Of a stretch of 64,000 bases of DNA, positions 61,544-64,000 are shown piece after piece. The stretch lies in the NCBI RefSeq assembly GCF_003610195.1, contig NZ_RAPO01000001.1:124001-188000 (forward strand), read 5' to 3'. A program made the translations under genes and the position numbers. The stretch comes from Halopiger aswanensis. GTDB taxonomy: Archaea; Halobacteriota; Halobacteria; Halobacteriales; Natrialbaceae. The notes under the pieces are model-generated. The model was not told where the DNA came from and did no database searches. It was given only the letters and a program-made list of their open reading frames with translations. The number at the start of each line of letters is the position of its first letter. Position 1 is the first letter of the stretch.

Positions 61544-62848
61544 ATGCCCGACGAGACACCGCAGACGGACGACGAGATCCGACGGGCGGTCATCGACCGC
61601 GTCCGCGAGGTCCAGATCATGGGCGGCGATCCGGTCAGTGAACAGTTGATCGAGGACGTCGACGTCGAGGACGGTATCGTCACCTTCACCGTCGACTTCG
61701 AACCGGTCAGTCGCGTGTTGGCGGACCGCCTCACCGACCAACTGCGCGGCGCCGGACTGGCGACCGACGGCGTGATCCACGTCCGCGTCGAGGCCGCCGG
61801 CTCGGACGCCCCTGAGACCGGTCTCCCAGTCTCCGGCGTCGACTCCCTCATCGCCGTCGGCAGCGCGAAGGGCGGCGTCGGCAAGACGACCGTCACCGTC
61901 TCGCTCGCGCGGGCGCTCAACGAGGCCGGCCTGGACGTCGGCGTCTTCGACGCGAACGTCTACGCGCCCGACGCGCCGGACCTGCTCGAGGCCGAGGGGC
62001 CGGTCCAATCGTCGCCGTCGGGGAAGCCGATGCCCGTCGAGGTCGACGGGATTCAGGTCGTCAGCATCGAGCTGATCGCCGAGGACGGACCGGTCGCCTG
62101 GCGCGGCGCGATGGTCCACGACGTCGTGAAGGACCTGCTTGGCGACGCCGCTTGGGACGACCGGGACGTGCTGCTCGTCGACCTCCCGCCGGGGATCGGC
62201 GACGCGGTCTACACGATCGTCCAGCAGGCGCCGCTGGACGGCGGCCTGCTCGTGAGCACGCCGACCGAGGAAGGCGTCCGAGCGACCCAGCGCACCGCGG
62301 CGCTGTACACGGCCAACGACGTGCCGACGGTCGGCGTCGTCCCCAACATGGTCGGCTCGGTCGCGGACGCAGCGGGGCCGTTCGACGACGCCGATCCCGA
62401 GACGATCGCCGAGGACGTCGTCGAGGCGGCCTACGCCGACGTAGCACCCGTGCCCTTCGATCCGGCCCTGCGAGAGCCGACGGCGGCGTCGTTCGCCGAC
62501 CCCGAGACCGAGGGCGAGCGAGCGATCGCCGACTTGCGGGCGACCGTCGAATCGTTCCTCGAGCACGAAGCCGGGCCGGCGGTTCCCGAAGATGCCGTCG
62601 ACCTGCGGGGGCTGCCGCCGGAAACCTGTCACCGGCAGGTCGTCACCGAACTCGGCGTCACCGAGGGGCCGGTGTCGGTCGTGATGCGGGGCGAACCCGA
62701 CGACCTCGTTTCGGTCGTCGACGAGAGCCTCGAACGCGACGGCCGCTCGCTCGAGCGAACCGACGTGGAGGATCTGGGCTACGAGGGCTGGTTGGTCGAA
62801 CTCGAGCCGTCAGCGTCGTCGACGGCGGTGTCGGAACCGGCGACCTGA
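61544..62848 (+). CDS. Divergent Mrp/NBP35-like ATPase with DUF2249-like C-terminal domain
   Basis: 434 aa from ATG at 61544. The domains are a degenerate MIP18/DUF59-like N-terminus (~14-84) and an Mrp ATPase (~102-340) with deviant Walker A GSAKGGVGKTT (106-116), DANVYAPDAP, GPVAWRGAMVH and VDLPPGIGD. Residues ~351-422 look DUF2249/TusA-like (VDLRGLPPETCHRQV). The CxxC Fe-S motif normally after ENM is absent (PNMVGSVADAAG). Fe-S carrier function is therefore doubtful. It is 263 bp before a NarG-like gene, suggesting a role in its maturation. Confidence 0.8.
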   Translation: MPDETPQTDDEIRRAVIDRVREVQIMGGDPVSEQLIEDVDVEDGIVTFTVDFEPVSRVLADRLTDQLRGAGLATDGVIHVRVEAAGSDAPETGLPVSGVDSLIAVGSAKGGVGKTTVTVSLARALNEAGLDVGVFDANVYAPDAPDLLEAEGPVQSSPSGKPMPVEVDGIQVVSIELIAEDGPVAWRGAMVHDVVKDLLGDAAWDDRDVLLVDLPPGIGDAVYTIVQQAPLDGGLLVSTPTEEGVRATQRTAALYTANDVPTVGVVPNMVGSVADAAGPFDDADPETIAEDVVEAAYADVAPVPFDPALREPTAASFADPETEGERAIADLRATVESFLEHEAGPAVPEDAVDLRGLPPETCHRQVVTELGVTEGPVSVVMRGEPDDLVSVVDESLERDGRSLERTDVEDLGYEGWLVELEPSASSTAVSEPAT

Positions 62849-63111: not shown

Positions 63112-64000
63112 ATGAGTGACGAGGACGACGGCGGGCTCGAACTGACCCGCCGCGAACTCGGCGCGGCGGCCGCGGGGCTTGCCGGTGCGTCCGGACTCGG
63201 CTTCCTCGGCTATCGGCGCCTGCAGCCCGAAGAGGCCGACGCCGAGGAGGGCCCCGAGGTTGCGATGAACCCGCTCGAGGAGTATCCCAACGAAGAGTGG
63301 GATCAGAAGTATCGGGACATCTGGGAGCCCGACGACTCCTATATGCTGACGTGTACGCCGAACGACACCCACAACTGCTATCTCGAGGCCTCCGTCAAGA
63401 ACGGCCAGATCACGCGCCTCGGCCCGTCGATGAACTACGGCGAGGCGACGGACCTCGAGGGCAATCAGTCCTCCCAGCGCTGGGACCCCCGCGTCTGTAA
63501 CAAGGGCCTGGCGATGGTCGAGCGCTTCTACAACGAGCGCCGCGTCAAGGCCCCGATGATCCGCGAGGGCTTCATGCAGTGGGTCGACGACGGTTTCCCG
63601 CGCGAGGACGACGGCTCCATGCCCGAGGAGTACGCCCAGCGCGGCGAGGACGACTTCATCGAGGTCTCCCACGAGGAGGCCCACGAGTACGCCGCCCGGA
63701 CCTTCCTCGAGCTCGCCCAGCAGTACAGCGGCGAGAGCGGCATGCAGTCGCTGCTCGAGCAGGGCTACGACGAGCGCGTCGTCGAGGAGACCCAGGGTGC
63801 CGGCGTCCGGACGATGAAGTTCCGCGGCGGGATGCCGCTGTTGGGCGTCATCAAGCTGTTCGGCCAGTACCGTAACGCCAACTCGATGGCGCTGCTGGAC
63901 AACTACGTCCGGGACGTCTCCGAGGACGAAGCCCTGGGCGCGATGGGGCTGGACAACTACTCGTTCCACACCGACCTGCCCCCGGGCCACACGATGGTTA
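63112..64000 (+). CDS. NarG-like molybdopterin oxidoreductase, 5' part
   Basis: The first 296 codons are present; the gene runs off the window. A twin-arginine leader (LTRRELGAAAAGLAG) directs a folded cofactor-bearing enzyme outside the cell. The [4Fe-4S] region follows: YMLTCTPNDTHNCYLEAS and DPRVCNKGLAMVERFY, with ligand spacing like haloarchaeal NarG and other type II DMSO-reductase-family enzymes. PSMNYGEATD and the GNQSSQRWDPR segments support the same group. Nitrate, (per)chlorate or another oxyanion is plausible; the catalytic Asp region is only partly visible. GAGGTGG lies 5-11 nt before ATG. Confidence 0.85.
   Translation, partial: MSDEDDGGLELTRRELGAAAAGLAGASGLGFLGYRRLQPEEADAEEGPEVAMNPLEEYPNEEWDQKYRDIWEPDDSYMLTCTPNDTHNCYLEASVKNGQITRLGPSMNYGEATDLEGNQSSQRWDPRVCNKGLAMVERFYNERRVKAPMIREGFMQWVDDGFPREDDGSMPEEYAQRGEDDFIEVSHEEAHEYAARTFLELAQQYSGESGMQSLLEQGYDERVVEETQGAGVRTMKFRGGMPLLGVIKLFGQYRNANSMALLDNYVRDVSEDEALGAMGLDNYSFHTDLPPGHTMV

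Follow-up and report, generated by a model that had tools for sequence, protein, structure and literature searches.

The window analysed here is a 64,000-nucleotide stretch (G000:C1:124001-188000) of the 4.87 Mb genome of Halopiger aswanensis, the close relatives of which are Natrialbaceae, e.g. Haloterrigena, Halopiger, Natronococcus, Natrialba, Natronorubrum and Halobiforma. Near its end lies a 434 aa open reading frame on the forward strand (61544..62848, +), encoding an Mrp/ApbC-family ATP-binding protein with a DUF2249-like tail and a cluster site free of cysteine (hereafter the window Mrp); the assignment draws on the ORF itself, Pfam PF10609, motifs and the tree. This is a real gene, with orthologues in relatives at 96% and 83% identity and a dN/dS of 0.10-0.29, indicating purifying selection. 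The protein belongs to the Mrp/NUBPL ATPases (PF10609, E=1.4e-51). At its N-terminus is a DUF59/FeS_assembly_P-like domain (residues 26-80; 61619..61783, +), for which the PF01883 match (E=1.8e-4) comes from the N-terminal part alone and is slightly below the curated cut-off (22.2 vs 23.5 bits). The P-loop ATPase domain follows (residues 99-311; 61838..62476, +) and is matched by the AF2 model, for which the best structural match is ApbC (8zkc), with Mrp-type HypB (5aup/3vx3) also found. Both Walker A and Walker B are intact. The deviant Walker A KGGVGKT (residues 109-115; 61868..61888, +), with both lysines invariant, sits within an intact SAKGGVGKT, and the pattern KGGxGK[ST] is invariant across 60 Mrp sequences.

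In a tree of these 60 Mrps, the tailed and the housekeeping proteins split with support of 100/100, and the tailed Mrps form one clade. The window Mrp falls into group A, a Natrialbaceae clade of 26 rows, four of which are duplicates of one another (22 distinct sequences). Group A is monophyletic (100/100) and sister to a group denoted A-prime (100/98), a placing that is less certain than the monophyly of group A because the two join on long branches. The CxxC motif, which binds a bridging [4Fe-4S] cluster, is a signature of the Mrp/NBP35 family (PMC6345978). At this site the window Mrp has PNMVGSVADAAG, and the two housekeeping Mrps encoded in the H. aswanensis genome read NMSSFACPDCGGQH and NMSSFVCPSCGDQH. 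The CxxC is present in 5/5 A-prime, 5/5 group C and 19/20 housekeeping proteins, and a CxxC or CxC in 4/4 of group B; in group A this Fe-S carrier signature was found in 0/26 rows, i.e. it is missing from 22/22 distinct sequences. Several group-A proteins have no cysteine anywhere in their sequence, and the sister and outer tailed groups have two cysteines at the cluster site. The tree places a single loss of the CxxC on the stem of the 100/100 group-A clade. In the window Mrp the corresponding loop (residues 268-292; 62345..62419, +), defined by alignment and AF2, contains no cysteine. The loop also differs in length, and residues 270-292 are modelled with a pLDDT below 50. The first-pass annotation had described a CxxC-less Mrp ATPase with a deviant Walker motif beside a molybdenum enzyme. 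This description was correct for the window protein, but it missed that the loss is specific to one clade, and that relatives in type II clusters, those of nar included, keep the CxxC (or CxC).

Variation at the cluster site is also seen elsewhere in the family. In Natronococcus amylolyticus, a housekeeping-branch Mrp without a tail (L112, G065:C20:92704-93636) has no cysteine at the site (STFIAPDTGKEYSLFG). This is an independent CxxC loss, so that the loss by itself is not unique. Two tailed Mrps of group B (L045:12215-13498 and L047:9176-10453) carry a C-x-C (TCDCGREH) that is one residue shorter than the CxxC.

A second motif is altered in the same clade. Codon 138 (AAC; 61955..61957, +), which in the alignment occupies the second Asp of the switch-I DxD, encodes Asn throughout group A (26/26 rows, 22 distinct sequences), and the other Mrps all have Asp there (34/34). 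Positions 141, 143, 218 and 247 likewise set group A apart, and N143D goes along with D138N. As judged from the alignment, the loss of the switch-I Asp coincides with that of the CxxC. Matched by motif, residue 138 corresponds to the second DxD Asp of MinD/Soj, and we take it to be the position of Get3 D57, again by motif. Soj D44A is an ATPase mutant with a dimeric crystal structure (PMC9178275), and Get3 D57N binds ATP without hydrolysing it (PMC12506534). Since the catalytic Asp of switch I is an Asn, ATP hydrolysis by the window Mrp is probably slow, or occurs only when stimulated. N143D may compensate for D138N, in which case the active site could have been rebuilt rather than slowed. The A-prime Mrps (L036, L054 and L105-L107), also found beside NXR-type alpha subunits, keep the CxxC, but their switch II reads PAG-S/T-D instead of PPGTG, and position 186 is Arg instead of Trp.

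After a gap of 263 bp, the window Mrp gene is followed by the start of an NxrA-like molybdopterin alpha subunit (63112..64000, +), which runs past the window to G000:C1:190663 and is 1183 aa in length. Further downstream, outside the window, are an NxrB-like beta subunit, a NarJ-type chaperone, a MobB-like protein, a molybdate-type ABC transporter including its binding protein, and a Bat-type HTH regulator. Against solved structures, the best match of the alpha subunit is Kuenenia NxrA (7b04, E=2.7e-221) over its full length, followed by perchlorate reductase (4e-45) and NarG (7e-29), and the beta subunit matches NxrB (2e-98). The alpha subunit has a Tat signal and the FS0 motif CTPNDTHNC. Nitrite oxidoreductase (NXR) coordinates FS0 through 3Cys/1Asp together with an Asn (PMC8387239), and the motif fits this arrangement, with Asn beside the Asp. 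Canonical haloarchaeal NarG at other loci has HxxxCxxxC (3Cys/1His); the window alpha has the Asp motif instead of His, and falls short of NarG-level similarity. The neighbour had initially been called NarG-like, which is right insofar as a related molybdenum enzyme follows, but not in the narrow sense of NarG, since both the best match among solved structures and FS0 place it on the NXR branch. No gamma subunit of the NxrC/EB_dh type was found in the group-A clusters.

That Natrialbaceae NarG sequences exceed others in length has been noted before, without a reported difference in binding sites (PMC8400030). Going by the motif, the Asp ligand of FS0 is such a difference, and these long 'NarG' proteins, unexplained in that study, can be re-filed as NXR-branch enzymes with an Asp-ligated FS0. 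The NarG-like subunits of Halobiforma nitratireducens are two NXR-type alphas, with no canonical NarG among them, which suggests that NXR-type alphas can serve as nitrate reductases and may well reduce nitrate in vivo. A haloarchaeal nitrite oxidoreductase was the subject of no paper in our literature search, though such a paper may exist. A link between the loss of the CxxC and the Asp-ligated FS0 was considered and rejected: L036, the A-prime locus whose FS0 motif could be read, has the same Asp motif, yet its Mrp keeps the CxxC.

The association of tailed Mrps with molybdenum enzymes extends well beyond this locus. Searching 61 related genomes with the window Mrp gave 21 tailed Mrps (the tail was read directly in 20 of these), and all 21 are within ~8 kb of an alpha subunit of the type II DMSO-reductase family. 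Among the other Mrp homologues listed, one is equally near an alpha subunit (G050), and this protein is CxxC-bearing and tail-less. Scanning GTDB contigs added 17 group-A loci, 16 of them adjoining an alpha. Within group A the alpha adjoins the Mrp in 21/22 distinct sequences; in the one species represented by L090 the two are unlinked. Group C sits in NarGH clusters. Conversely, two NarG clusters (the second copy in G011, and that of G047) have no linked tailed Mrp, and such an Mrp is therefore not strictly required across the wider family of enzymes; for one NXR-type alpha the upstream side is cut off by a contig end. In G013, one deletion has reduced the cluster to a single chimeric ORF (L094:8782-9306), a scar in which the start of the Mrp runs into a piece of alpha and then into what seems to be the end of MobB. 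The linkage to molybdenum enzymes proposed in the first-pass annotation is thus strong, and its idea of an ATPase dedicated to the molybdenum enzyme is borne out as an association. The published denitrification promoter motif CGAAYATDKTYG was not enriched near the gene (1 near-match vs 1.0 expected). A sigma-70 promoter scan gave no match and is uninformative for archaea.

The tail (residues 347-424; 62582..62815, +) was delimited by profile-profile comparison and its AF2 fold. Searched alone, the tail of the window Mrp has no Pfam match even at E<=10, and in this literal sense the DUF2249 hit that had been expected of it is lacking; its homology is recovered through relatives, profile alignment and fold. 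In alignment A1, 6/17 relatives of the same architecture match PF10006, the best at 3.1e-19. Aligned with hhalign to the DUF2249 domains of the same genome, the 26 group-A tails score 29.0, against a maximum of 17.0 in 100 column-shuffled controls, and the probability is 97% with tailed relatives added, which form a bridge to DUF2249. AlphaFold predicts a beta-alpha-beta-alpha-beta-beta arrangement (mean pLDDT 90), with SirA/TusA as the top fold matches (3hz7, Z 9.9; IscS-TusA 3lvj, Z 8.6) and Alba-like folds close behind. Together, profiles and model support a divergent DUF2249 domain with a TusA fold, as had been suggested. The same genome also encodes two proteins of ~390-410 aa with four tandem DUF2249 domains (G000:C4:244407-245420 and G000:C5:113963-114958), an arrangement for which we found no description in the literature consulted on DUF2249.

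Several known systems resemble parts of this locus. In Haloferax mediterranei, E6P09_17415 (P-loop NTPase plus DUF2249) belongs to the nar operon and is induced in denitrification, with a log2FC of 3.60 (PMC11218638). Likened from its published description, this protein has the same order of Mrp ATPase and DUF2249 tail beside a type II molybdenum enzyme; the partner of the window Mrp is, unlike in the nar operon, NXR-type, and the group-C relatives in NarGH clusters keep both the CxxC and the switch-I Asp, neither of which is found in the window Mrp. The Fe-S carriers of the ApbC/Mrp/NBP35 type (8zkc, MrpORP) share its ATPase fold, Walker motifs and weak DUF59-like N-domain, but the window Mrp differs in lacking the CxxC and in having D138N and the DUF2249 tail. 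Another parallel is HypB of Thermococcus kodakarensis, a protein of the Mrp type (3vx3, 5aup). It shares the Mrp fold, has no cysteine at the CxxC site and is comparable in principle as a partner in the maturation of a redox metalloenzyme, within the HypAB complex; the study of this protein found no nickel site (PMC7055735). This HypB differs in that the switch-I DxD is kept in the alignment, there is no DUF2249 tail and the client is a nickel enzyme. In Thermus, DrpA and DrpB are DUF2249 proteins linked to the nitrate reductase operon, and their deletion leaves the reductase subunits at normal levels with low activity (PMC6282519); these proteins are free-standing, with no ATPase fusion, and have also been proposed as nitrate sensors. 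For the partner enzyme, Kuenenia NxrAB (7b04) aligns over the full length of alpha and beta and shares the FS0 pattern C-x3-D-x3-C with Asn adjoining the Asp, although group-A clusters have no detected NxrC/EB_dh-type gamma.

On balance, and with slightly more conviction than doubt, we regard the window Mrp as a dedicated, cluster-free ATP-binding maturation factor for the neighbouring NXR-type molybdoenzyme, going by its sequence and by analogy. A maturation role, already put forward in the first-pass annotation, is the best-supported one, and linkage and precedent are what speak for it. A cluster-free Mrp in enzyme maturation has a precedent in the T. kodakarensis HypB, which lacks the site cysteines and in which no nickel site was found, and the tail has one in DrpA/DrpB, without which nitrate reductase is made but poorly active. 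We infer ATP binding, an ATP-bound dimer, binding of a client, the step served and the role of the tail as follows. The protein would have arisen from a DUF2249-tailed Mrp accompanying type II DMSO-reductase-family enzymes in haloarchaea, and the group-A form would no longer carry an Fe-S cluster while retaining ATP binding. Its ATP-bound dimer may clamp apo alpha, or alpha-beta, in the cytoplasm ahead of Tat export, acting with the NarJ-type chaperone to keep the client competent for insertion of Mo-bisMGD and/or FS0. The DUF2249 tail could provide an enzyme-specific docking surface or a ligand-sensing surface. As both the cluster cysteines and the ATP-splitting residue have been lost, the window Mrp probably helps to assemble its partner in another way than related Mrps do. 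A stronger version is tentative and, to us, doubtful: that this Mrp clade is a hydrolysis-impaired, cluster-free ATP clamp for the assembly of archaeal NXR-type enzymes, and that the long 'NarG' is a working NXR-branch enzyme, possibly a reversible one.

A different role for the tail would be to sense nitrate or nitrite, with an ATP-locked Mrp core relaying the signal to expression of the cluster. The proposal of DrpA/DrpB as nitrate sensors (PMC6282519), the Bat-type HTH regulator in the cluster and the induction of DUF2249 proteins in denitrification (PMC11218638) are in keeping with this, and the catalytic change would suit a switch better than a carrier. We nevertheless consider it unlikely: the Mrp core is that of a maturation-ATPase family, the tailed clade otherwise keeps two cysteines throughout, and no DNA-binding domain was found in the window Mrp. 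Moreover, the DrpA histidines are conserved in just one H. mediterranei DUF2249 protein, which is not the Mrp fusion (PMC11218638). More unlikely still is a heterodimeric Fe-S carrier in which, as in Cfd1/Nbp35, the cysteine-free chain pairs with a CxxC-bearing paralogue (housekeeping or A-prime) that supplies the ligands. Mrp dimers do bridge a cluster (PMC6345978), and this genome encodes three CxxC-bearing Mrps, two housekeeping and one A-prime, but group A has no conserved cysteine or new ligand set, its loop is of low confidence in AF2 and of different length, and several group-A genomes, G001 and G028 among them, lack the A-prime paralogue.

The TusA/SirA fold of the tail led the first-pass annotation to suggest a sulfur-transfer ATPase, in which the tail would bring persulfide to the molybdenum site. 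This we reject as extremely improbable, because the protein has no conserved cysteine, either in the tails or in whole group-A sequences; the catalytic CPxP motif occurs in 0/26 group-A tails, 13/26 tails have no cysteine and several proteins are entirely cysteine-free. The loss of two functional motifs might mark a decaying, functionless paralogue, yet the low dN/dS, the invariance of the new residues and the synteny in 21/22 make decay very improbable as well.

That a haloarchaeal nar operon encodes a fusion of an Mrp-type NTPase and DUF2249, and that this fusion is induced in denitrification, had already been published (PMC11218638). As far as our literature search shows, what is new is the structure of its clades, which span three enzyme types, the assignment of the partner to NXR, and the single CxxC loss with its coincident switch-I Asp-to-Asn change. 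Groups A and A-prime form a natural pair of sister clades on the same enzyme branch, one without CxxC and switch-I Asp, the other with both. This pair makes the separate contributions of cluster binding and ATP hydrolysis to Mrp function directly testable.

The group-B clusters have features of their own. Their alpha subunits (L046:868-4071, L047:1540-4701 and L050:909-4034) carry a four-cysteine FS0 (CHPNCTQSC) that is neither NarG-like nor NXR-like. A HEAT-repeat protein (PF13646), absent from NXR-type clusters, is present in group-B and NarGH clusters, where it lies between the EB_dh-type gamma and the tailed Mrp (L047:7622-8512 and L048:8584-9420).
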